Origin: Bacteroidales bacterium | Lineage (GTDB): Bacteria; Bacteroidota; Bacteroidia; Bacteroidales; ML635J-15 | Direction of reading: 5' to 3' | Length of the DNA: 35,754 nt | Assembly: GCA_028702675.1 (NCBI GenBank) | Contig: JAQVOJ010000004.1 | Span: 22,734-58,487 of the forward strand | In this document: positions 9,541-35,754 of the stretch, in pieces | Layout of the letters: the number at the start of each line of letters is the position of its first letter | Numbering within the stretch: the stretch's first letter is position 1 | Made by a program: the position numbers and the translations under genes | The notes under the pieces: model-generated | Told to the model about the DNA's origin: nothing | Seen by the model: the letters and a program-made list of their open reading frames with translations, nothing else | Databases searched by the model: none

Positions 9541-10518
9541 ATGAAACAAGTATTATTATTATTTATTACAATTTGTGTCAATTCTGTTTTGTTTGCACAA
9601 ACAGGCAAAAATCAAGCCATTGAAATAATCAACGAGAAAACCGGTAATCATAAAGATATACCGGGCATGCAGATCAGTATTATACCTCCACATGATTTTG
9701 TTTTTAGCGACCGATTCACAGGTTTTGAGCACAAAATAGCTGGTTCGAGTATTATGATATCGGAAGTACCCGGAGATGTTCATCATAGTTTTCTTGGTTT
9801 TAGTAAAGCAAATATGATGAAAGCAGGAATGATTGTAGAAAACGAGATTTTGTATCAAATAAATGGTTATGATGCTCTTTTTCAGAAAGGACAACAAGGA
9901 GCTTATGGTAAAATATATACAAAATATATACTGGTAATTGGTGATTATAAAAAAACATTTATGCTCTCGGCATCATTACCAATTGAAACATCGCAAACAC
10001 ATAAAAAAGAAGTAAAAGAAGCCTTACTGTCTATTGTATATGAACCCGACCGAAAGGTTACAAAAGAAGATAAGTATGATTTTTCAATTGATGTAGAAGA
10101 TACAGGCTTATTAAAAACTAATATTTTAGTTAATTCGCTAATTTATACTGATGACGGAAATATTCCATCACAAACAGAAAGTAAAACATCACTTATGGCA
10201 AGCAGAGCTAAACTAACTAATGTAAATATAGACAAAAAAACCTATGCATTAAAATTAATGGAACTGTACCCTGTTACTTGGGCTACAGGTGAAAAATTAG
10301 AACCAAAACCTATTACAATCGATGGACTATCAGGCTATGAAATTTACGGTATTGGCATAAATGATGAAAATAATAAAATAGAATTAATTTATCAGGTTAT
10401 ATTATTCCATGATTCTTATTATTACAGCATTTCCGGCATGACTTTCAGTAATAAATTTGAAGAGCATCTTAGTACTTTTAGAAAAATAGCCAACAGCTTT
10501 AAGCTTAAGAAGCAGTAA
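9541..10518 (+). CDS. Secreted protein of unknown function
   Basis: A 325-residue protein with a signal peptide (MKQVLLLFITICVNSVLFAQ). I do not recognise a named family. The mature part appears to contain two similar halves: each has a segment of the type GYDALFQKG/GYEIYGIG, preceded by a large hydrophobic strand and followed by a strand such as ILVIGDYKKTFMLSASLP or YQVILFHDSYYYSISGM, then a helix ending the unit (HKKEVKEALLSIVYEP; FEEHLSTFRKIANSFKLKK). This resembles the PsbP-like or DUF1795-type fold in which a short secreted domain reports on membrane stress, but the resemblance is by eye only. It is followed by a terminator at 10529-10551, so it is probably monocistronic. Location periplasm or outer surface. 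Confidence 0.7.
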   Translation: MKQVLLLFITICVNSVLFAQTGKNQAIEIINEKTGNHKDIPGMQISIIPPHDFVFSDRFTGFEHKIAGSSIMISEVPGDVHHSFLGFSKANMMKAGMIVENEILYQINGYDALFQKGQQGAYGKIYTKYILVIGDYKKTFMLSASLPIETSQTHKKEVKEALLSIVYEPDRKVTKEDKYDFSIDVEDTGLLKTNILVNSLIYTDDGNIPSQTESKTSLMASRAKLTNVNIDKKTYALKLMELYPVTWATGEKLEPKPITIDGLSGYEIYGIGINDENNKIELIYQVILFHDSYYYSISGMTFSNKFEEHLSTFRKIANSFKLKKQ

Positions 10519-10528
10519 TTATTATGTC

Positions 10529-10551
10529 AAAATCTTATTCAAGATTTTTTT
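10529..10551 (+). terminator. Terminator hairpin after the secreted protein gene
   Basis: 8-bp stem AAAATCTT / AAGATTTT with loop ATTC, running directly into a T-tract. The stem is AT-rich and therefore weak, but position (10 bases after the stop) and U-tract fit intrinsic termination. Confidence 0.6.
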
Positions 10552-10615
10552 ACAATTGATTAAATAAACGCAAAATAAACTAACATTAATCACAGTTTAA
10601 TAAATTCAGTTTATG

Positions 10616-10623
10616 TAGTTTTG
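10616..10623 (+). promoter_or_regulatory. Bacteroidota-type -7 box before the HAD nucleotidase
   Basis: TAGTTTTG matches TAnnTTTG exactly and ends 10 bases before the ATG at 10634. No clear TTG-type -33 box is seen 19 bases upstream. It would give a very short leader, in line with the lack of a Shine-Dalgarno site. Confidence 0.45.
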
Positions 10624-10633
10624 CAGATTAGAT

Positions 10634-11326
10634 ATGAAAGCATATAAGAATTTATTTATAGACCTGGACAGGACTTTGTGGGATTTTGAAGCAAACTCTG
10701 AAGAAACATTTAGAGAACTATTCAACAAGTATAATTTACAATTGCATTTTTGTGATTTTAATGATTTTTTTGTGAGATATCGAAAAAACAATAATTATTT
10801 GTGGAGCCAATATAGAGAAAATCTTATTTCAAAAGATAAACTTAAATGGCTAAGATTTGACCTTACTTTTAGAGAAGTAAATTTAATAAATAAAGAACTT
10901 GCTATAAGTTTTGGCAACGACTATATTACCATAAGTCCCGAAAAAGTTAAGCTTATCCCAAATACTATCGAAGTATTGGAATATTTACACCCTAAGTACC
11001 ATTTATATTTAGTTACAAATGGATTTAAAGAAGTTCAAGAAAAGAAACTAACAAATACAGGATTAAATAAATATTTTAAGCGGATTTTTACTAGTGAAGA
11101 GATTGGATTCAATAAACCTCACCCTGAATATTTTAGTTATGTATTATCAGAAACCAATGCCTCAATTATTGATTCGATAGTAATTGGTGACGATTTAGAG
11201 GTAGATATTAAAGGAGCTAATCATCATAATTTAGATACAATTTGGCTAAACAATAATGGTAACAAAGCTAGTTACAAGGTTAGCTACGAGATTAAAAAAC
11301 TTTCTGAAATATTAAATATATTATAA
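10634..11326 (+). CDS. yjjG: YjjG-like HAD-superfamily nucleotidase
   Basis: A 230-residue cytoplasmic HAD phosphatase of subfamily IA. All four motifs are present: I, D10-L-D12-x-T14 (FIDLDRTLWDFE); II, T128 in LVTNGF; III, K161 in FNKPHPEYF; IV, D186-D187 in IGDDLEVDIKGA. A helical cap lies between motifs I and II (about 20-100). The opening LFIDLDRTLWDFEANSEETF is typical of the YjjG group, which dephosphorylates dUMP, dTMP and non-canonical pyrimidine nucleotides and so cleans the nucleotide pool. Other HAD-IA substrates remain possible. It has its own -7 box and precedes the thioredoxin gene by 68 bases, which also has a -7 box, so the two need not be co-transcribed. Confidence 0.85.
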   Translation: MKAYKNLFIDLDRTLWDFEANSEETFRELFNKYNLQLHFCDFNDFFVRYRKNNNYLWSQYRENLISKDKLKWLRFDLTFREVNLINKELAISFGNDYITISPEKVKLIPNTIEVLEYLHPKYHLYLVTNGFKEVQEKKLTNTGLNKYFKRIFTSEEIGFNKPHPEYFSYVLSETNASIIDSIVIGDDLEVDIKGANHHNLDTIWLNNNGNKASYKVSYEIKKLSEILNIL

Positions 11327-11333
11327 ACTTAAA

Positions 11334-11341
11334 TATATTTG
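11334..11341 (+). promoter_or_regulatory. Bacteroidota-type -7 box before the thioredoxin gene
   Basis: TATATTTG matches TAnnTTTG exactly, 53 bases before the ATG at 11395. A -33 TTG at the expected distance is not obvious. Confidence 0.45.
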
Positions 11342-11394
11342 CACTTGTGAACATAGGCATAATCCTTGTAAACATAATAAACAAAAACACATAA

Positions 11395-11787
11395 ATGAAT
11401 ACAAAACGCTCATTATTCTTACTTGCCTTAAGTATTTTTATACTTGGCTTAAATACACTAGCACAAGACGATTCAAGAATTAAAGTGATTTCAGGAAATA
11501 GCTTTAATACGGATATAAAAAAGGGAGTTGTAGTAGTTGATTTTTATGCTGATTGGTGCCGTCCTTGTAAAATGCTAACTCCTTTGTTAGAAAAAATTGC
11601 TTTTGAAGAAGAAGGTAAATTTACAATTGCAAAATTAGATGTTGACAAATATCCGGAAATTTCATCTGAATATGGTATTAGAGGAATTCCCTGTCTTATA
11701 GTTTTTAAAGATGGCGTTGAAGTAGATAGAATTGTTGGATTACAAACTAAAGAGAATATAATTGCAATTGTAAATAAGCATTTATAA
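11395..11787 (+). CDS. Exported thioredoxin
   Basis: A 130-residue thioredoxin fold with an N-terminal signal peptide (about 1-23, ending TLAQ), so it works in the periplasm rather than the cytoplasm. The redox site is C55-R-P-C58 within VVVDFYADWCRPCKM, and the cis-proline loop is IRGIPCLIVF near 100; it also has an extra cysteine directly after that proline (IPC). The CRPC pair instead of CGPC changes redox potential in known thioredoxins. Likely roles are reduction or maturation of exported thiol proteins such as cytochromes or outer-membrane proteins; the partner cannot be told. The gene stands alone, facing the dnaK gene tail-to-tail. Confidence 0.85.
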   Translation: MNTKRSLFLLALSIFILGLNTLAQDDSRIKVISGNSFNTDIKKGVVVVDFYADWCRPCKMLTPLLEKIAFEEEGKFTIAKLDVDKYPEISSEYGIRGIPCLIVFKDGVEVDRIVGLQTKENIIAIVNKHL

Positions 11788-11963
11788 ATATCTTGCTCAG
11801 TGAGGTCAAAAGTTTTATCATATTCTTTTCATATTTTGCATAAACACAGCATAATAAGGGAGCGAACAAGAATTAACCCGTTCAATATTTAAGTTTTTTT
11901 TTGATAATTATCACATAGACTTTTTTGTGTAACGCTATTTCAGGACGAGACAATTCAGAAATA

Positions 11964-11994
11964 AAAAAGGAGTTACTTTACGCAACCCCTTTTT
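11964..11994 (-). terminator. Bidirectional terminator between dnaK and the thioredoxin gene
   Basis: An 11-bp stem with one mismatch (AAAAAGGaGTT / AACCCCTTTTT) and a 9-base loop. A T-tract follows on both strands, so it can end dnaK transcription (minus) and thioredoxin transcription (plus). It lies 22 bases after the dnaK stop. Confidence 0.75.
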
Positions 11995-12016
11995 ATTTTT
12001 TTAGAATCAGTACTAC

Positions 12017-13927
12017 TTATTTCACTTCTTCGAAATCAACGTCAGTTACTTCGTCGTCACCTGATTTTTTATCATCACCTTGTTGGGCTCCTTGGTTAGT
12101 ATATGCATTCGCACCTTCTTGAGCTTGCTGTGCATTATACATGTCTTGCGAAGCAGCTTGAAAAGCAGTATTTAACTCGTTCATTGCAGTATCGCATGCT
12201 TCTACATCCTGATTTTTATGAGCTTCTTTTAGCTTGTTTAGTGCTTCTTCGATAGGAGCTTTTTTGTCGGCAGGAATTTTCTCTCCAAAGTCTTTTAGTT
12301 GTTTTTCGGTTTGGAATATCATACTGTCGGCTTGATTTAGCTTATCGATACGTTCTTTAGCTGCTTTATCGGCATTGGCATTAGCTTCAGCTTCTGCTTT
12401 CATTTTTTTAATTTCCTCATCACTCAATCCCGAAGAAGCTTCTATACGTATGCTTTGTTCTTTTCCTGTTCCTTTATCTTTAGCCGAAACATTCATAATA
12501 CCATTAGCATCAATATCGAAAGTAACTTCGATTTGAGGGACTCCGCGGGGAGCAGGTGGTATTCCGTCAAGATGGAAACGTCCAATAGTTTTATTATCTT
12601 TTGCTAAACTTCTTTCCCCTTGCAACACATGAATTTCAACCGAAGGTTGATTATCGACTGCAGTAGTAAAAGTTTCGGCTTTTTTTGTTGGTATTGTAGT
12701 ATTAGACTCAATAAGCTTTGTCATAACACCACCCATAGTTTCGATACCTAAAGAAAGAGGAGTAACGTCTAGAAGAAGAACGTCTTTAACTTCGCCTGTT
12801 AGTACACCACCTTGAATAGCTGCACCAATAGCAACAACCTCGTCAGGATTAACACCCTTGCTAGGAGCTTTTCCGAAAAAGTCTTGAACTTTTTTCTGGA
12901 TTGCCGGAATACGTGTACTTCCACCAACCAATAAAACTTGGTCAATATCTGAAGCTTTTAATCCTGAATCTTTAAGAGCTTGCCTGCATGGTTGAATTGT
13001 AGCCTCAACAAGTTTGTCAGTTAATTGCTCAAATTGAGATCTTGTTAATGATTTAACTAGGTGCTTTGGAATTCCGTCCACCGGCATAATATACGGTAGA
13101 TTTATTTCTGTTGTGCTCGAACTTGACAATTCAATTTTAGCTTTTTCGGCAGCTTCTTTTAGTCTTTGCATTGCCATTGGGTCTTTTCTTAAATCTACCC
13201 CTTCATCAGCTTTAAACGAATCTGCTAACCAATCAATAATTATTTGGTCAAAATCATCACCGCCAAGATGTGTATCTCCATTAGTCGATTTTACCTCAAA
13301 AACTCCATCTCCAAGTTCTAAAATTGATATATCGAAAGTACCACCACCGAGGTCGAAAACGGCGACTTTCATGTCAATATCTTTTTTATCTAATCCATAA
13401 GCAAGTGCTGCAGCAGTAGGCTCATTAATAATTCGACTAACCTTTAAGCCGGCTATTTCGCCTGCCTCTTTTGTAGCTTGACGCTGAGAGTCATCAAAAT
13501 ATGCAGGCACAGTAATTACGGCTTCGGTAACTTCTTGACCGAGATAATCTTCGGCAGTTTTCTTCATTTTTTGAAGAATCATAGCCGATATCTCTTGAGG
13601 AGTATATTTTCTATCATCAATAACAACTCTTGGAGTATTATTGTCACCTTTTATTACCTTATATGGCATACGTGCAACATCTTTTGCCACATTGTCATAT
13701 TTTTCGCCCATGAAACGCTTAATAGAAGCTACTGTTTTTTGAGAATTTGTAATAGCTTGACGTTTTGCAGGGTCTCCAACTTTTCTTTCACCATTTTCAA
13801 CAAATGCAACCATCGAAGGAGTTGTCCGTTTTCCCTCACTATTGGGAATTACAACGGGTTCGTTACCTTCCATTACGGCTACACACGAGTTGGTTGTTCC
13901 TAAGTCAATTCCAATTATTTTACCCAT
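12017..13927 (-). CDS. dnaK: Chaperone DnaK (Hsp70)
   Basis: A 636-residue Hsp70 of full length. The ATPase domain (about 1-385) starts with [17 protein letters not shown], has [17 protein letters not shown] and the second phosphate loop [21 protein letters not shown], and the adenosine motif [14 protein letters not shown]. The interdomain linker reads [18 protein letters not shown], followed by the beta-sandwich substrate domain and a helical lid. The tail is Gln/Ala-rich and ends [13 protein letters not shown], close to the EEVD-like end common in bacteria. It folds and protects proteins together with DnaJ and GrpE. Neither partner gene is adjacent, so dnaK stands alone here. No CIRCE-type inverted repeat is visible upstream; a heat-shock sigma promoter cannot be judged by eye. 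Confidence 0.99.
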
Positions 13928-29937: not shown

Positions 29938-30011
29938 GGACCCGTAGCATAATTGGATAGTGCACCTGACTACGGATCAGGAGGTTGGGGGTTCGAATCC
30001 CTCCGGGTTCA
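29938..30011 (+). tRNA. tRNA-Arg, anticodon ACG
   Basis: Full cloverleaf by hand: acceptor GGACCCG (29938-29944) with CGGGTTC (30004-30010, one G-T pair), D stem GCAT/GTGC, anticodon stem CCTGA/TCAGG with loop CTACGGA giving anticodon ACG at 29972-29974, T stem GGGGG/CCCTC with loop TTCGAAT, discriminator A30011. CCA is not encoded. The A at position 34 would be edited to inosine by TadA. Its 3' half is the integration site of the element to the right. Confidence 0.96.
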
Positions 30012-30012
30012 C
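29967..30012 (+). repeat. Left attachment site (attL), inside tRNA-Arg
   Basis: 46 bases from TGACTACGG to GGGTTCAC, covering the anticodon arm through the 3' end of the tRNA. Identical to 35428-35473 except base 29997. The functional tRNA is complete on this side, so integration restored the gene. Confidence 0.9.
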
Positions 30013-30022
30013 GCTAAAAATC

Positions 30023-30050
30023 AAAGGGTTACAGCAATGTAACCTTTTTT
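30023..30050 (+). terminator. Element-borne terminator of tRNA-Arg
   Basis: 11-bp stem (AAAGGGTTACA with TGTAACCTTT, one G-T pair) closed by a GCAA tetraloop at 30034-30037 and followed by six T. It starts 12 bases after the tRNA. Because it lies inside the element, the element supplies a new terminator in place of the chromosomal one now found at 35482-35511. Confidence 0.8.
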
Positions 30051-30060
30051 ATTTTGATAA

Positions 30061-30081
30061 TTGTAACACAATTGTAACACA
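30061..30081. repeat. Left arm-type repeats, two copies
   Basis: TTGTAACACAA then TTGTAACACA in direct tandem, period 11 bases (one helical turn), 48 bases inside attL. The same unit occurs three times at 35280-35312 near attR, in the same orientation. Matching repeats near both ends of an integrative element are the usual form of integrase or excisionase arm sites. Confidence 0.75.
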
Positions 30082-30178
30082 TAACATGGCTTAGGGGGGT
30101 GGGGTGTAGTATAATTTAATGGTGATTTAAAATAAAATTTCATTATTTTAAATCGATAATTAATTGAAAAATATACAA

Positions 30179-30574
30179 CTATTCATTAAAACTTTGCTGT
30201 TCTAACGCCAAATTTTCCGCTTCAATATCTGAAAAAATAATTTGAACAGGCTTATGATGGTCTTCTGCAAAGTCTTGAGGTGTGATTTTTTCTATTAAAA
30301 TTCTTTGTTCTTCTGCGGTTAATGGTGGGTTGGTTTTTATCAACTCATCAAGTTTAATAGTATTTTCGGTTGGTCGAGGTAAAGCAAATTGCAGTAATTT
30401 AGTGTAAAAATGTAGCCGGTCTTGTGGCTGCATATCCTGAAAGTCTTGTTTCACTTGCTCGAAATTGTCGTTCAAAAATTCGGTAATCAGATTGCGGAGT
30501 TCTGCGGTGCATTTGTTTTTACTTCCGGCTGGTCTTCCGTCTGGGTTATTAGTTCTTCCTTTTGGTAGTCCCAT
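30179..30574 (-). CDS. DUF5681-like protein
   Basis: A 131-residue soluble protein. The N-terminus MGLPKGRTNNPDGRPAGSKNK is the hallmark of the DUF5681 group, a basic GRP-rich stretch seen at the front of many phage and element proteins, sometimes next to terminase genes. It is followed by a helical region LRNLITEFLNDNFEQVKQDFQDMQPQDRLHFYTKLLQFALPRP. I recall no proven function; DNA binding by the basic N-terminus is plausible. It is the last gene before attL and is separated from the main operon by 212 bases carrying the iteron-like repeats, so it probably has its own promoter and control. Confidence 0.65.
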   Translation of the reverse strand: MGLPKGRTNNPDGRPAGSKNKCTAELRNLITEFLNDNFEQVKQDFQDMQPQDRLHFYTKLLQFALPRPTENTIKLDELIKTNPPLTAEEQRILIEKITPQDFAEDHHKPVQIIFSDIEAENLALEQQSFNE

Positions 30575-30648
30575 ATTTTTGTATTTTTTTGTTGTTTCAA
30601 ATTATTTTTTAAATCTCTTGGTACACTCTTATAATAAATTTATAAAAA

Positions 30649-30686
30649 ATCTTTCTATAGTATCTTTCTATAGTATCTTTCTATAG
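30649..30686. repeat. Iteron-like tandem repeats, three copies
   Basis: ATCTTTCTATAG occurs at 30649-30660, 30662-30673 and 30675-30686, exact, period 13 bases. They lie in the 212-base non-coding gap upstream of the DUF5681-like gene. The sequence just after them, TATAGGTCGTGT (30683-30694), recurs at 30747-30758. Short spaced repeats of this type are typical of replication origins or multi-site operators. Confidence 0.75.
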
Positions 30687-30690
30687 GTCG

Positions 30691-30734
30691 TGTAAATGTT
30701 TAAAGTCAAATTGTAGTCGAATTGAACATTTACA
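30691..30734. repeat. Inverted repeat beside the iteron-like array
   Basis: Perfect 10-bp arms TGTAAATGTT (30691-30700) and AACATTTACA (30725-30734) around a 24-base centre. The arm core AAATGTT also forms the dyad at 33008-33041 elsewhere in the element, so one protein may bind both. Confidence 0.65.
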
Positions 30735-30786
30735 AAACTCTTTTTTATAGGTCGTGTTATGGTCTTTATTGTCATGTTTTTAGCTT

Positions 30787-31077
30787 TCATTTTGTTACAC
30801 CTGTTACAGTATCTGTAACATCGTTACATTTATTTATTATTCTGCTTACTTGTGTATGCGAAATTCCGGTTCTATCAGCAATTTGCCTTAAGCTTAAGCC
30901 CTGTTTATGTAATATAAGAACATTATGTTCTGGGCTGTCGCTTAGTTGCTCTTGTGCTTTTTTCTCCCAATGCCTCAAATTTGCTTGTTTAACCTTTTCA
31001 GGGTTCTTTTTTCTCCATTGACGATGGTACTCATTCTTAGCCTTGCGGGCTGCTTCTGATAATTCTAATTTGCTCAT
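30787..31077 (-). CDS. Small helix-turn-helix protein
   Basis: A 96-residue protein in two parts. Residues 1-45 are a charged helix (SEAARKAKNEYHRQWRKKNPEKVKQANLRHWEKKAQE), of the kind seen in small mobile-element and phage proteins. Residues about 55-82 form a resolvase-type HTH: ILHKQGLSLRQIADRTGISHTQVSRIINK. It likely binds DNA, perhaps the repeats of the same element. Its last codons contain a perfect 8-bp inverted repeat of the TGTAACA motif (30802-30820). It follows the 232-residue gene by 4 bases at the end of the operon. Confidence 0.75.
   Translation of the reverse strand: MSKLELSEAARKAKNEYHRQWRKKNPEKVKQANLRHWEKKAQEQLSDSPEHNVLILHKQGLSLRQIADRTGISHTQVSRIINKCNDVTDTVTGVTK
30802..30820. 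repeat. Inverted TGTTACA/TGTAACA pair inside a coding end
   Basis: TGTTACAG, spacer TAT, CTGTAACA: perfect 8-bp arms. A further TGTTACA is at 30793-30799 and CGTTACA at 30822-30828. The core equals that of the arm repeats. They fall in codons for Val-Thr pairs, so amino-acid repetition could also explain them. Confidence 0.5.
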
Positions 31078-31081
31078 GATT

Positions 31082-31780
31082 TTAAAATTTATTGTTTGAC
31101 TTAAGTTTATTTAATGCTTTATTGATTGCTTCCAGTTCCTTTTGTCTGTATGCCTTATTTAAGTTAGATTTTCGCTTCTTTTCAACTTCATAAACAAGTT
31201 GCTCCAAATTGAGTTGGAAGCTGTAATAACAACCTCTGGTGTATCTACCATAATACACAAGTTGCCAATTATTCCGAAGCTCTTTTTTTATCTTATTCGT
31301 TTGATATTCACTTGTAAAAAACTTTATTTCCGACGATAGTTTGTCAAATGGTTTCAACGATGAGGCTTTACCGTCCATTCTTGCCCATAAATAAGCGTTG
31401 GTTATTTTACAGTATGCTTTATTCTGTATAATGCTTTTGAGTGCTAAAAACATCAAGAAACAAGCTTTCTCGAAGTTGGTTTTATGGTTTTTATAATAAT
31501 CAAAGAATAAATCTGTACTTATACCAACTTTGGGGCTGTTGCTTGCTATTGAGTTGTGCAATGCTTCGCCATTATCACAAGTATTTTCTTCATTGCATGT
31601 TACTCTAAAATGCTTACAAGCTGCTGTAATCCTTACCGAAATATCATCATACTCAAGTTTATTTGCTGCATGGTCGTATATTGCATAATCAAAGATATTG
31701 TTAAGGCTTTGGTTGGTGTTTGGTATGAAGTCCTGCAATAATTGTACAGGAACATTAAAATACTTCTTATCTGTTCCCAT
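31082..31780 (-). CDS. Unknown protein, possibly a DNA-replication or regulatory factor
   Basis: A 232-residue protein, start taken at ATG 31780 (a TTG three codons upstream also opens the frame). No family recognised with certainty. The opening KKYFNVPVQLLQDFIPN and a middle segment with helices FEKACFLMFLALKSIIQNKAYCKITNAYLWARMDG, then TNKIKKELRNNWQLVYYGRYTRGCYYSF (wing-like), could make a winged-helix DNA-binding fold like those of initiators. The C-terminus is a long basic coiled-coil-like helix (LVYEVEKKRKSNLNKAYRQKELEAINKALNKLKS). It overlaps the nuclease gene by 14 bases. A role in replication or packaging of the element is only a guess. Confidence 0.6.
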   Translation of the reverse strand: MGTDKKYFNVPVQLLQDFIPNTNQSLNNIFDYAIYDHAANKLEYDDISVRITAACKHFRVTCNEENTCDNGEALHNSIASNSPKVGISTDLFFDYYKNHKTNFEKACFLMFLALKSIIQNKAYCKITNAYLWARMDGKASSLKPFDKLSSEIKFFTSEYQTNKIKKELRNNWQLVYYGRYTRGCYYSFQLNLEQLVYEVEKKRKSNLNKAYRQKELEAINKALNKLKSNNKF

Positions 31781-32258
31781 TGCTACCAAATTTTAAATTA
31801 TACCAATTATAAAATCCTATAAAGTTTCGAACTATAATATAAATGCCACCTGCTGCTTCAATATCCTTTTGATATTGTCTTTGATAGCTGCTTTGTTTAT
31901 CGTTACCAACCTTAACTTCAATTTTAACGGCTCTACCTCTTATTGTCGCACTTATATCAGCCGTTCCACGAGTTCCGGCGGTCTTACCATACTGAACACT
32001 TCCAATAGTGCGAACACGTCCCGAAACATCTGTAAATGTCTTTCTATTGTCAATTATTCGACCTGTACAGTTTATTCGTTCAGCTTGTCCGCCATTCAAT
32101 CTAATGAAGTGTATAATCATTTTAGTTAAGCCGTTGGCGGTCTTGTCTGTATAGCGTGGACTTGTTCGAGCATACTCCGGCATACTTGGGTACTTTCTGC
32201 GATGATCCTGCAAATACAATTCTCGGAGCTTAGCAATTGCAGTTCTTTTATTTTTCAT
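31767..32258 (-). CDS. PD-(D/E)XK nuclease, VRR-NUC-like
   Basis: A 163-residue protein. The C-terminal half is a PD-(D/E)XK nuclease core: D101 in GTADISATI, then E114-V-K116 in AVKIEVKVG, followed by Q126 and Q130 in SSYQRQYQKDIEAAGGIYIIVRNF, the order expected for the VRR-NUC clan. The N-terminal half is basic (KKNKRTAIAKLRELYLQDHRRKY) and may bind DNA. Such small nucleases occur in phages and integrative elements and act on branched DNA or as nickases; cleavage preference unknown. All catalytic residues I can identify are kept. It overlaps its neighbours by 11 bases on the upstream side and 14 on the downstream side. Confidence 0.75.
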   Translation of the reverse strand: MKNKRTAIAKLRELYLQDHRRKYPSMPEYARTSPRYTDKTANGLTKMIIHFIRLNGGQAERINCTGRIIDNRKTFTDVSGRVRTIGSVQYGKTAGTRGTADISATIRGRAVKIEVKVGNDKQSSYQRQYQKDIEAAGGIYIIVRNFIGFYNWYNLKFGSNGNR

Positions 32259-32574
32259 AGCTAAATAGGTTTAATTGTGTAACTGGTTGCTGTTGCAAAT
32301 AGTCCGGGTTCGTGGTGATGTAATTCGCATTGAAGCCAGTCTTCTTACATTTAGCTTTGCAGACTTCCCAAAGTTGCCCCGACTTCTCAAGCATACGTTT
32401 GTAGCGGGTTATGTTTTTTTGATAAATTCCAGTGGCTTCAGCTACCATTGAAGCGGTGGCAATATGGTTGCTTAAGTATTCATTAAAGGCTTGTATTTGT
32501 GGCTTATTATCAGTACATTTGCCTTTGTTTGTTGCCCCTTGCTTCCCGGCGGGGGTTTTTTCTATTGCTTCCAT
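32248..32574 (-). CDS. Small helix-rich element protein
   Basis: A 108-residue protein with a winged-helix-like centre: IQAFNEYLSNHIATASMVAEATGIYQKNITRYKRMLEKSGQLWEVCKAKCKKTGFNANYITTNP. Proteins of this shape recur in Bacteroidota mobile elements next to excisionase-type genes, but I know no tested function. The helix pair ATASMVAEATGIYQKNITRYKRML could be a helix-turn-helix. The stop of the HTH gene overlaps its start (TAATG), so the two are coupled. The N-terminal Lys/Gly/Thr-rich tail (TPAGKQGATNKGK) is probably flexible. Confidence 0.65.
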   Translation of the reverse strand: MEAIEKTPAGKQGATNKGKCTDNKPQIQAFNEYLSNHIATASMVAEATGIYQKNITRYKRMLEKSGQLWEVCKAKCKKTGFNANYITTNPDYLQQQPVTQLNLFSYEK

Positions 32575-32933
32575 TATCTTACTCCCTTTCTTTGTGAATT
32601 TAAAAACGCAGCGGCTTCTGCTTCAACTTCGGAGCTGGTTTTTTTACTGCCGGACTTAATCCAATCAATCAATACTTGTTTATCAAAATATAAACGACCA
32701 TTTCGCTTGCTCACGCCAGGCAGTTCGCCTCTACTAACTTTTGAATAAATCGTAGGAGTTCTTAAATGCAATAGCTTAGCAGCCTCATCGATAGTTAATA
32801 ATTCATTTTCTTCGGGTTCGGGAGTCATTATTTCCCAATCGATTAAAATGGCTTTAATCTCGCTTAGTTGTTTAATCATTCTATCTACAGCATCTGGCAT
32901 ACTGTCGAATGATGTTTTTTGTTGTTCTTCCAT
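32574..32933 (-). CDS. Excisionase-like helix-turn-helix protein
   Basis: A 119-residue DNA-binding protein. The HTH_17/MerR-like module lies at about 46-92: LTIDEAAKLLHLRTPTIYSKVSRGELPGVSKRNGRLYFDKQVLIDWIKSG, with the K-R-N-G-R-L-Y-F wing typical of excisionases and similar helper proteins. The N-terminal 45 residues form a helix with an acidic linker. It opens the main operon, preceded by 106 bases holding a perfect 12-bp inverted repeat right at its start codon and a 34-bp dyad further upstream, which suggests autoregulation. Likely role: directing excision with the integrase, or controlling the operon. Confidence 0.8.
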   Translation of the reverse strand: MEEQQKTSFDSMPDAVDRMIKQLSEIKAILIDWEIMTPEPEENELLTIDEAAKLLHLRTPTIYSKVSRGELPGVSKRNGRLYFDKQVLIDWIKSGSKKTSSEVEAEAAAFLNSQRKGVR

Positions 32934-32973
32934 TTTGTAACAATTTTAAATTATTATTATTATTGTTACAAAA
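32933..32973. repeat. Perfect 12-bp inverted repeat at the HTH gene start
   Basis: Arms TTTTGTAACAAT (32933-32944) and ATTGTTACAAAA (32962-32973) around 17 AT-rich bases. The left arm touches the start codon. Each arm contains TTGTAACA, the core of the arm repeats at both element ends. A bound repressor would block expression of the operon. Confidence 0.75.
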
Positions 32974-33007
32974 ATATAGTGTTTGTTTTGTTAAATGGCT
33001 TATATTC

Positions 33008-33041
33008 AAATGTTTATAAGTGTTAACAACTGTAAACATTT
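33008..33041. promoter_or_regulatory. 34-bp dyad upstream of the excisionase-like operon
   Basis: AAATGTTT (33008-33015) and AAACATTT (33034-33041) are symmetric about the palindrome GTTAAC (33022-33027), all centred on 33024.5. It overlaps the stop codon of the 323-residue gene. A protein binding as two dimers, or an origin element, would fit. Confidence 0.6.
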
Positions 33042-34011
33042 AGCTGTCTTGTGCTAATATTGTTTTTATTTGTTTTTCAATTGTTTCAGGTTCATTATCG
33101 AAAAACAACTCTTTCTTTAACTCATTAGTAGCTGTTATGAAGTATTTATTGACTGTTCGTCCATCAAATTTTTTATTTCCTGTCAAGGTTCTACAAAAGT
33201 TCTGCCTATTATTGCCGTTTTTATGTCTATTATTAATATCAATATAAACGATACTCTCTTGTACCAAATATTGTATTAAAGCTGCTTTCTCCTTGTTTTC
33301 GGCATTCTTATATTTTTCTTGTATTTGATTAATCTTTGCTTCGGATAATTCACGAAAAAAATCTTTAAATCTAATTTCCTGTGGGGTTGTGATATTGTCT
33401 TCTAACTCTTGCAAATATTTTGGTACTTCGTTTGCTATTATATTTTGACCTTTTATTAATTCTTTTATCATTTCATTTCTGGCTTGTAAGTCCTTTATTG
33501 AAACTACACCTTGTGCCATTGGACGTTTAGCAAGTATTTTTTTTATTGAATCTGGTAACTTTTGTTCCAGTAAAATCAGATCGTTTTTCAACTTAACTCT
33601 TTGCTTAATATTTTCTATTATTTCCAAATGATAATTAAAAAACTCTCGGTTTACTGATATGTTATAGCCATTTCCAATTATTGAAGATGGTATAGGAATT
33701 TCTGTTTTGTCGGGTTCGATAAAGATTGGTGTATCGTTTTTATCATAGTACCATACAGTATTAGAATCAACAGTTCGGGTAATACCGTCTTTATATTTGG
33801 CTGTAACATACTTACCACTATAAACTTTTGATTTGTACCATGTTAACCAATTATCAATAATACCTGTTAGCCTTTCAAAAAACTCGTCTTTATTGTGTTC
33901 ATAGTGTTCATTTACAATGTTTACATAATAGTTTTCCCAATCAATTTCAGGGTTCTTAAATGCTTCAATTATTATACTCTGGTAATCTTTTTCTAAAAGT
34001 ATTTTATTCAT
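33040..34011 (-). CDS. 323-residue unknown protein, possible cargo
   Basis: No family recognised. The N-terminal part (about 1-110) has many aromatic residues (WENYYVNIVNEHYEHNKDEFFERLTGIIDNWLTWYKSKVY). The middle (about 125-255) is helical and charged, with coiled-coil character (HLEIIENIKQRVKLKNDLILLEQKL; IRFKDFFRELSEAKINQIQEKYKNAENKEKAALIQYLVQES). A C-terminal segment YIDINNRHKNGNNRQNFCRTLTGNKKFDGRTVNKYF looks like a conserved surface loop with basic residues. No signal peptide or membrane helix. It lies 23 bases after the integrase gene and is separated from the other operon by the control region. In small satellites this slot often holds cargo such as defence genes, but nothing in the sequence proves it. 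Confidence 0.6.
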   Translation of the reverse strand: MNKILLEKDYQSIIIEAFKNPEIDWENYYVNIVNEHYEHNKDEFFERLTGIIDNWLTWYKSKVYSGKYVTAKYKDGITRTVDSNTVWYYDKNDTPIFIEPDKTEIPIPSSIIGNGYNISVNREFFNYHLEIIENIKQRVKLKNDLILLEQKLPDSIKKILAKRPMAQGVVSIKDLQARNEMIKELIKGQNIIANEVPKYLQELEDNITTPQEIRFKDFFRELSEAKINQIQEKYKNAENKEKAALIQYLVQESIVYIDINNRHKNGNNRQNFCRTLTGNKKFDGRTVNKYFITATNELKKELFFDNEPETIEKQIKTILAQDS

Positions 34012-34034
34012 TATCCATTGTTATAAGTTTAACA

Positions 34035-35264
34035 TTAATTCGCTTTACTAAATCCTACAGTTAGATTATTGGTTTGCTCCTGTATTTGTTCTTTTTCAAA
34101 GCTATCTAAATAACTCTCGGTTGTGCCTACGTTACTATGCCCCAATAATTCACTTATAAGCTCGATTGATGCTCCAGAACGCTTTAAAACAGTTGCGAAG
34201 CTGTGCCTTGCGTAGTATGTAGTAATCGGCTTATTTATATTAAGTTCGATTGCAATTCGTTTCATGTATTTATTTATGGTCTTGGTTAATTGTTTAATAG
34301 TAGCTTGCTGCTCTATTGCTGTCATTCCGGGTTTAAGGTGCGAAAAAATATAAGTTTCTTTAACTACAGACAATTGTCCCCACTTCTTTATAATAGCCTT
34401 TGTTTCAGGCTTCAAAGCAACCACTATGCTTTTACTTTCCCTTTGTGTTCGCTTGGTTTTGGCTCTATTATAAATAATCATATCGTCGTTAATATTGCTC
34501 CATTTCAACAAACACAAGTCTTTTACATTCATTCCATTGCATAAATACATGAATATCCAGTAATCCTTTGCCATTTCCTTATTAGTATTAGCCGGGACTT
34601 TGTGATTAAAAATCTTAGCCACCTCATCGATGGTTAATGCTTTCTTAGTGTTTTTACCAGTAGGTATAGAATATAGCTTTTTGCTTTCGCCAAATGGGTA
34701 AATACTTCTATCAATGTTTTGTAAATTGTAAATAGCTCTTAAGCTTCTTAAATAAATACCAACGGTTGTAATACTTTTACCTTTTTTAATCATCCAGTTT
34801 TCATATTTTTTTAAAAAAGCCGGTGTAATATCTGCGAAGCTAAGGTTCTTTTTAAAGCTTTCTAAACTTCGTTTTGCATTCCTGTAGCTTTCAGCCGTAG
34901 CAATTCGATTTTCATCTATAAGCTGTTCTATGTATTTATCAAATGCAAATGATATACTATTTGTGATATTTCGCTGCTCAAAATATGCCTGCTCGAAGTT
35001 GTCAAATGTAAAAACAATAAGTTTTTTATTAATTACATCGGTTGCCTTGTTTTGATAATATAAGATTTTATCATAATTTTCTTTTTGTTTCTTGGTTTTT
35101 CTTTCAGCATGAAATACTTTTTCATACTCATCTGGAGTAAGGTAAATATTTGTTGGGTAATATTTCCGCTTTCTTAAATAAGTTACTTTGATTTTAACCG
35201 AACATTCGCCATTTTTTCTTGGTCTTGTTTTGTCAATATAAATATCTGCTTTTGCTTTGCTCAT
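34035..35264 (-). CDS. int: Tyrosine site-specific integrase
   Basis: I set the start at ATG 35264, giving 409 residues (numbers below). Upstream codons to a TTG at 35312 would translate the arm repeats and run into the -7 box, so they are not coding. Layout: N-terminal arm-binding domain (about 1-95), SAM-like core-binding domain (about 100-205), catalytic domain (about 210-400). Catalytic residues: nucleophile Y385 (TTESYLDSF), H376 (LLGHSN), R353 (YYARHSF). The first Arg of the usual R-H-R-Y set is N246 (CNGMNVKDL) and the box II His is Tyr (Y350), substitutions I recall as normal in this Bacteroidota integrase branch. It lies beside attR and points inward. Target: the tRNA-Arg 3' half. 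Confidence 0.92.
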   Translation of the reverse strand: MSKAKADIYIDKTRPRKNGECSVKIKVTYLRKRKYYPTNIYLTPDEYEKVFHAERKTKKQKENYDKILYYQNKATDVINKKLIVFTFDNFEQAYFEQRNITNSISFAFDKYIEQLIDENRIATAESYRNAKRSLESFKKNLSFADITPAFLKKYENWMIKKGKSITTVGIYLRSLRAIYNLQNIDRSIYPFGESKKLYSIPTGKNTKKALTIDEVAKIFNHKVPANTNKEMAKDYWIFMYLCNGMNVKDLCLLKWSNINDDMIIYNRAKTKRTQRESKSIVVALKPETKAIIKKWGQLSVVKETYIFSHLKPGMTAIEQQATIKQLTKTINKYMKRIAIELNINKPITTYYARHSFATVLKRSGASIELISELLGHSNVGTTESYLDSFEKEQIQEQTNNLTVGFSKAN

Positions 35265-35279
35265 GACTGAAATTATTTT

Positions 35280-35312
35280 TTGTAACACAATTGTAACACA
35301 AATGTAACACAA
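35280..35312. repeat. Right arm-type repeats, three copies
   Basis: TTGTAACACAA (35280-35290), TTGTAACACAA (35291-35301), ATGTAACACAA (35302-35312), period 11 bases. They sit between the integrase ATG and its -7 box, so binding by integrase would also shut off its own gene. The same unit is present twice at 30061-30081. Confidence 0.8.
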
Positions 35313-35317
35313 AAGTA
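35310..35317 (-). promoter_or_regulatory. int: -7 box of the integrase gene
   Basis: TACTTTTG on the minus strand matches TAnnTTTG exactly, 45 bases before the ATG at 35264. It overlaps the outermost arm repeat. No clear -33 TTG at 19 bases. Confidence 0.5.
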
Positions 35318-35427
35318 CAAAACAAACAAATATTAAAAAAAGTTGATTTTAACATAATTCGCTTATTTTCAAGCCTTAAGATAGCATTTGTTTTGCTTTC
35401 TTAAATACCTGTTTTGTGGCTAAGGTA

Positions 35428-35473
35428 TGACTACGGATCAGGAGGTTGGGGGTTCGAGTCCCTCCGGGTTCAC
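35428..35473 (+). repeat. Right attachment site (attR), tRNA-Arg 3' half remnant
   Basis: 46 bases equal to 29967-30012 but for G35458. The upstream tRNA half (acceptor 5' strand, D arm) is absent, so this is not a functional tRNA. It marks the right end of the element. Confidence 0.9.
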
Positions 35474-35585
35474 AAAAGAAGCCTGAACAACGATAGTTGT
35501 TTAGGTTTTTTCTTTTAAATGCGTTGAGCTTGCTCATAAGCATTCAGAAGGAAAAAACGAAATATGCGAAAGCATATTCAGGCTT
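35459..35585 (+). repeat. Tandem unit copy 1: tRNA 3' tip, terminator and structured segment
   Basis: 127 bases from TCCCTCCGGG to TTCAGGCTT, repeated without visible change at 35628-35754 (offset 169). Contents: the last 15 bases of the tRNA repeat, a terminator hairpin (35482-35511), a nested hairpin ATGC..GAGC-TT-GCTC..GCAT (about 35519-35543), and AATATGC-GAAA-GCATATT (35561-35578). The arms AAGCCTGAA (35479-35487) and TTCAGGCTT (35577-35585) can close the whole segment. Confidence 0.85.
35482..35511 (+). terminator. Original chromosomal tRNA-Arg terminator, displaced
   Basis: 10-bp stem CCTGAACAAC / GTTGTTTAGG (one G-T pair), loop GATA, then TTTTTTC. It starts 9 bases after the attR repeat, as expected for a terminator of the tRNA before integration. 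Confidence 0.8.
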
Positions 35586-35627
35586 TATGATTGAGCTACA
35601 TATCCAAAATTTGGGATCATGAAATAA

Positions 35628-35754
35628 TCCCTCCGGGTTCACAAAAGAAGCCTGAACAACGATAGTTGTTTAGGTTTTTTCTTTTAAATGCGTTGAGCTT
35701 GCTCATAAGCATTCAGAAGGAAAAAACGAAATATGCGAAAGCATATTCAGGCTT
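35628..35754 (+). repeat. Tandem unit copy 2 (runs to the window end)
   Basis: Second copy of the 127-base unit, separated from copy 1 by 42 bases (35586-35627). Its leading bases read AATCCCTCCGGG and so have the A of the intact tRNA, not the G of attR. It may continue past the window. Its terminator lies at 35651-35680. Confidence 0.85.
35651..35680 (+). terminator. Second copy of the tRNA terminator
   Basis: Same hairpin and T-tract as 35482-35511, shifted by 169 bases. No promoter or gene is seen directly before it in the window. Confidence 0.7.

Follow-up and report, generated by a model that had tools for sequence, protein, structure and literature searches.

The locus analysed here raises the question of what kind of mobile element has entered the tRNA-Arg(ACG) gene of a Bacteroidales bacterium (assembly GCA_028702675.1, contig JAQVOJ010000004.1). 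The window, that is, the whole stretch of 35,754 nucleotides that was analysed, contains a 5.46-kb segment of eight genes bounded by a direct repeat, for which a reading of the letters without database searches (the sequence-only reading) had suggested a minimal integrative element or phage satellite. We estimate the probability at roughly three in four that this element is a minimal phage satellite carrying its own terminase small subunit (TerS). It is one of a widespread family of minimal integrative elements that bear TerS, a family apparently undescribed so far.

The ends of the element are marked by a pair of 46-bp direct repeats, attL and attR (Table 1), with 98% identity, one mismatch and a spacing of 5461. 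Such a near-identical pair is not there by chance. ARAGORN detected a sole tRNA gene in the window, and its 3′ part is the left copy of the repeat, so that the repeat search and ARAGORN together bear out the 5.46-kb insertion in tRNA-Arg(ACG) as first described. The differing base is A in attL and G in both attR and the tRNA of a relative (G318), a pattern to be expected if attP of the incoming element supplied the 3′ end that the tRNA now has. A second tRNA-type terminator is located beyond attR, and presumably served the tRNA before insertion. Tandem 11-bp copies just inside both ends could plausibly be the arm sites bound by an integrase that has an Arm-DNA-bind domain, and several relatives have repeat pairs of their own, with different sequences, at the two ends. 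Empty attB sites in relatives, proposed in the sequence-only reading as a check, do exist: no integrase was found near rimO-tRNA-Arg in G295 and G317, where the next gene follows within about 60–130 bp, or in G299, where ordinary genes come next. As these relatives keep rimO-tRNA-Arg without an insert, the site is occupied in the present genome. The chromosome to the right of attR is not traceable, for the contig stops at the window end, inside a tandem repeat.

This tandem repeat (35459–35754) has a 169-bp unit that starts with the last 15 nt of tRNA-Arg. Of the second copy the contig includes exactly 127 bp before it breaks off, a length that looks like a k-mer limit of the assembly. In G318 the same tRNA is likewise followed by similar repeats of the tRNA 3′ end (L087, positions 2682, 2782, 2909 and 3009), which recall the tyrT/rtT repeats of E. 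coli.

All eight genes inside the repeats are on the minus strand, and all their open reading frames are open. Of the genes that had been recognized from the letters, the integrase, the excisionase-like helix-turn-helix (HTH) protein and the HTH protein are supported by Pfam and PHROG profiles, and the PD-(D/E)XK-like nuclease by a PHROG endonuclease match together with the D...ExK motif; the count of seven genes did not stand, since the gene at 32248–32574 for a 108-aa protein is additional. In the nuclease, residues D101 and E114-x-K116 are invariant across five homologues. Neither structural nor relaxase nor transfer genes were found in the element with Pfam and PHROGs, in agreement with the earlier claim that structural and transfer genes are absent. 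PADLOC gave only weak matches of HTH type, and a defence cargo was rejected on this ground.

The product of the gene that adjoins the tRNA matches DUF5681 weakly (18 bits vs the Pfam cut-off of 27.5), and hence is referred to as 'DUF5681-like'. Homologues were found immediately upstream of the gene for the terminase large subunit (TerL) in four phage-type loci, with a Terminase_3 match at 1e-19 to 1e-38 for L063 and L064 (G172) and L071 (G158), and with Terminase_6 for L133 (G537). A TerS profile built from elements only, from which the G172, G158 and L038 sequences were excluded, matched the former three at 3e-17 to 3e-13 and L133 at 3e-25; a fifth TerL-linked case, L095 (G107), gave a weak profile match (0.008). 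In four sister elements (L172, L184, L185 and L188), the slot after the replication gene is occupied by an unrelated HTH protein that matches PHROG terminase small subunit families, at 5e-17 for L184 and at about 1e-7 to 1e-6 for the other three. The occupation of one slot by two unrelated kinds of TerS points to TerS as what the slot is for. The DUF5681-like gene thus very probably encodes a terminase small subunit, an assignment that stands on gene neighbourhood and slot replacement, and on neither fold nor biochemistry. The idea that this gene hints at helper packaging is strengthened by both lines of evidence. Searching PDB sequences with profiles was of no help.

The same architecture recurs in other genomes. 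Relatives of the DUF5681-like protein are present in 27 of 295 Bacteroidales genomes. Among the 32 places with such a relative that were examined, an integrase gene (counted if upstream, on the same strand and within 8 kb) was found in 18, with xis as well in 17 of these, while three had an adjacent large terminase instead of the integrase; most of the remaining places were cut at contig ends or carried rep/xis genes only. Most of the tested elements are bounded by direct repeats, with sizes of 5.2–7.5 kb (9.7 kb in one case), and several of the repeats match the 3′ ends of tRNAs (Cys, Ala, Asn, Leu, Gln, Ser, Met, Val) or of tmRNA. The order is fixed as int, an int-side gene, xis, an exchangeable replication gene and the DUF5681-like gene adjoining the tRNA. 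Occupants of the replication slot are unrelated to each other, and include replication proteins of the Phage_CRI type (CRI Rep), D5/DUF5906 helicases, AAA_25 ATPases, BT4734-like, DUF6371, DUF3987 and Lin1244-like proteins, and O/DnaC-like pairs. A scan of named genomes for CRI Rep yielded 52 loci, including those of Bacteroides, Phocaeicola, Prevotella, Parabacteroides, Tannerella forsythia and Prolixibacteraceae, and also of two gammaproteobacterial metagenome-assembled genomes. Int, xis and rep stand together in 42 of the 52, the DUF5681-like (A1-type) TerS is present in 24, and a Terminase_3-type large subunit in none. The gene order looked for in other Bacteroidota therefore recurs, as free-standing tRNA-bounded elements in many genomes. 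The proposal of a Bacteroidota satellite class holds as regards this recurrence, and is slightly too narrow as a restriction, given the same order in the two gammaproteobacterial genomes. In these two (L185 and L188, one a Methylophaga), int, xis and CRI Rep stand in the same order and the TerS-like gene is a different one, which may reflect either a binning error or a wider host range.

Individual relatives showed further features. The 9.7-kb TerS element in tRNA-Leu of G122 (L033) has replication genes of O-like and DnaC-like type; its gene at 10121–12328 encodes a 735-aa product with a match (E 2e-121) to phrog_19383, a possibly structural phage protein of unknown function. Two tandem, diverged TerS-like genes are present in L035 (8779–9368) and also in L147, L150 and L155, as though hedging between helpers. 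In G323, a gene for an LRR-TIR protein (L134, 9692–10825), possibly defence cargo, adjoins the TerS-like gene. The replication-slot proteins of about 450 aa in L027 (10874–12226) and L029 (9545–10921) have DxxxxQP and I.HDE/HDS motifs that resemble the palm of family-A polymerases, with no Pfam match to a polymerase.

The genome contains a second element of 5.2 kb on contig C111, located in tRNA-Glu(TTC) and bounded by a 17-bp repeat, with the order int, 343-aa gene, xis, 162-aa gene, Phage_CRI (filamentous G2P-type) replication protein and DUF5681-like gene. At the DNA level the DUF5681-like gene is 96% identical between the two elements, and the N-terminal part (first two thirds) of the 323-aa gene is 95% identical over 635 nt to its C111 copy; int, xis and the replication genes differ. 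The sharing of TerS and of the int-side part between elements with different int, xis and rep indicates that modules have been exchanged between them. A filamentous provirus was considered for the C111 element and rejected: its Rep matches Phage_CRI, yet no filamentous morphogenesis or capsid gene was matched in it.

The Rep of the second element bears on the foremost alternative, an integrative mobilizable or plasmid-like element with its own Rep, for which conjugal transfer would be aided by a resident integrative and conjugative element or plasmid and the DUF5681-like protein would be a DNA-binding regulator. Mobilizable units of Bacteroides combine int with one mobilization gene and use tRNA sites, the rolling-circle Rep proteins of Phage_CRI type, as in C111, are related to relaxases, and an AT-hook-like stretch (HMG-I, E 0.04) is found at the N-terminus of the DUF5681-like protein. 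Among Bacteroides elements, NBU1 and NBU2 are named in PMC11389934. However, relaxase and coupling protein are absent from both the window element and the scanned relatives, and conjugation leaves unexplained both the homology of the distal gene to a phage gene upstream of TerL and its replacement by unrelated TerS-like genes in sisters. This alternative is considered unlikely.

Still less probable is a satellite by descent of which the present copy has decayed and become immobile. The one-base difference between the att copies would fit decay, as would the fact that the element has been seen only in the integrated form and that no helper terminase was found in its host. The att mismatch is, however, explained by the incoming attP, all eight reading frames are open, and the 95–96% identity of TerS and part of the 323-aa gene to the second element points to recent exchange. 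Origin by deletion, as a remnant of a once complete prophage or conjugative element, was rejected as very improbable: prophages do contain int, xis and TerS-like genes, but the same compact, att-flanked set recurs in fixed order at many tRNAs in many genomes, as remnants would not, while the phage-type loci have TerS beside TerL with no int within 8 kb. Residence of the same genes inside a larger prophage or conjugative element had been named as the sign of such a remnant, and none of the elements examined lies within a larger prophage.

With respect to replication, neither Pfam nor PDB gave a sequence match for the 235-aa protein. Its AlphaFold model (pLDDT 88) aligns over residues 7–193 to RepE54 and other Rep proteins, among the rows naming a molecule, with Z about 6 and a root-mean-square deviation of 4–5 Å, and its gene lies in the slot that in relatives holds the replication genes. 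On the predicted structure, the protein is a candidate two-winged-helix replication initiator resembling RepE. Three 13-bp tandem copies in the AT-rich region between the TerS and HTH genes are candidate iterons, a proposal for which the Z-score alone is insufficient.

Table 1. Features of the tRNA-Arg element and its borders (positions within the window)
Feature	Position	Strand	Evidence
tRNA-Arg(ACG), intact, reconstituted at left end, insertion target	29938–30012	+	ARAGORN; empty homologous sites in relatives
attL core, 46 bp, 3′ part of tRNA gene	29967–30012	+	One base unlike attR
Element-borne tRNA terminator GGGTTACAGCAATGTAACC, then T-run	30013–30052	+	Sequence; hairpin −12.2 kcal/mol
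Left arm-type site candidates, two tandem 11-bp copies TTGTAACACAA	30059–30082	+	Repeat searches
DUF5681-like protein, 131 aa, proposed TerS	30179–30574	−	TerL neighbourhood; PHROG TerS matches in same slot of sisters
Candidate iterons/origin, three exact tandem 13-bp copies ATCTTTCTATAGT	30649–30686		TRF
HTH protein, 96 aa, regulator candidate	30787–31077	−	HTH_23 1e-6; phrog_14214 3e-11
235-aa protein, candidate replication initiator, two winged-helix, RepE-like fold	31082–31789	−	AlphaFold model and fold search; homologues in other Bacteroidales
PD-(D/E)XK-like nuclease, 163 aa	31767–32258	−	phrog_93 endonuclease 4e-5; D...ExK motif
DNA-binding-like protein, 108 aa	32248–32574	−	Weak matches only; homologues adjoin nuclease and xis in L029, L039
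Excisionase/AlpA-like HTH_17 protein, 119 aa	32574–32933	−	PF12728 5e-12; phrog_66 excisionase 1e-8
Inverted repeat TTTTGTAACAA...TTGTTACAAAA overlapping xis start, operator candidate	32933–32973		Repeat search
323-aa protein of unknown function beside int	33040–34011	−	No Pfam match; place filled by a gene in nearly all relatives
Tyrosine integrase	34035–35264	−	PF00589 (Phage_integrase) 1.9e-19; PF13102 (SAM_5), PF17293 (Arm-DNA-bind_5)
Right arm-type site candidates, three tandem 11-bp copies of TTGTAACACAA type	35280–35312	+	Repeat searches
attR core	35428–35473	+	Repeat search
Original chromosomal tRNA terminator, displaced 5.46 kb from tRNA	35480–35512	+	Hairpin −14.8 kcal/mol, then T-run

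As a minimal satellite, the element may be expected to follow a cycle of helper-dependent excision, replication and packaging. Int, guided by the arm sites near both ends, would insert the circle at the 3′ end of tRNA-Arg, and the insertion would restore the tRNA together with a terminator. Upon infection by a helper phage, Xis and Int would excise the element, and the RepE-like initiator would replicate it from its own origin. TerS would then bind the element DNA and hand it to TerL and the capsid of the helper, where a headful of concatemers would fill a head of normal size. Packaging of concatemers is likely because no gene for capsid remodelling is seen in the element, whose 5.46 kb fall far short of the headful of a tailed phage; it has been shown for phage-inducible chromosomal minimalist islands (PICMIs; PMC10803314).

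Several points weigh against the satellite reading. The element is known from sequence alone. The host genome (98.9% complete) gave no match to Terminase_3, 6N or 6C, and a resident helper, none being known, was rejected; with these TerL families absent, the helper would be a phage infecting from outside. The structure model of TerS (pLDDT 74) matched no known TerS fold in a search against viral structures, and the RepE match is weak at its Z of about 6, pri-rep homology being absent from the element. About half of the CRI Rep loci are without A1-type TerS within 6 kb; some of them have another TerS, and in some none was seen. Three IMG/VR contigs contain relatives. The IMG/VR contig L199 begins inside an apparent chromosomal gene, hence is not proof of packaging, and was rejected as a complete circle for this start and for the absence of a terminal repeat. 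Scans of viral contigs with the 235-aa protein and TerS alone found nothing, nor did tblastn against phages and plasmids with the same two proteins; A1-type TerS is too diverse for a pattern scan. The satellite interpretation of the sequence-only reading draws its support from the recurrent tRNA-bounded architecture, the TerL-linked TerS homologues, the replacement within the TerS slot and the empty sites.

Among known systems, phage-inducible chromosomal islands (PICIs) of the Gram-negative type have int, an AlpA/xis-type protein, their own replication module, TerS and no structural genes, in roughly 8–15 kb. The element shares with them the site-specific int with att repeats, the HTH_17 AlpA/xis-type protein, a candidate replication module of its own, the lack of structural genes and, judged from neighbourhood and slot replacement, a TerS of its own. 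It differs in its 5.46 kb and eight genes, in a TerS of another, DUF5681-like family, in having no known capsid-size or interference genes, and in the arrangement of all genes on the minus strand without a divergent control region. P4-like satellites also integrate site-specifically, and some relatives of the element carry D5/DUF5906 primase-helicases as in P4; in contrast, the element is half the size, possesses TerS, and gave no Pfam or PHROG match to the capsid-control and decoration genes of P4 (sid, delta, psu) or to alpha or ash. The NBU/Tn-type mobilizable elements of Bacteroides agree in host phylum, tRNA target and tyrosine integrase, whereas the window element has a TerS-like gene in place of the mobilization protein, with relaxase families unmatched (Pfam, PHROGs). 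The PICMIs of Vibrionaceae are similar in size and economy, with int, an HTH_17/AlpA-type regulator, a replication gene and an unknown-function gene beside int, iolg in PICMIs and the 323-aa gene here (PMC10803314). The iolg gene overlaps int by four bases in PICMI115 (PMC10803314); the 323-aa gene is 24 bp from int, and the int-side gene of L026 overlaps int. PICMIs are found beside fis, have a primase of DUF3987/DUF5906 type and lack terS, which is listed as the packaging redirector of other satellite families (PMC10803314). The present element lies instead in tRNA-Arg beside rimO, within a family that uses tRNA genes, has varied replication genes and carries a TerS-like gene; it has no DUF3987/DUF5906 primase itself, though some relatives have one. 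By analogy, the element may best be likened to a stripped PICI, or to a PICMI with TerS.

Phage satellites have been described mainly in Enterobacteria, Vibrio, Gram-positive bacteria and some marine and soil bacteria, while Bacteroidota are a dominant phylum of gut and environment. No Bacteroidota satellite of this kind was found in a full-text literature search, whose coverage did not extend to much of the subscription literature or to the main survey of satellites. The compact layout ending in the TerS slot offers a direct means of finding such elements, the conserved gene beside int is flagged as a likely essential part, and a small terminase function is proposed for a DUF5681-like family that PHROGs leaves unknown. 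The type of TerS would predict the range of helpers. Beyond this, the odds appear even that minimal phage satellites of this layout are a class of their own in Bacteroidota, and a very widespread one, in which int, the int-side gene, xis, a replication slot and a TerS slot are fixed, and rep and TerS are exchangeable cassettes. If so, a swap of TerS could change the helper phage, and in one branch headful packaging would be supplied directly with concatemers from rolling-circle replication.

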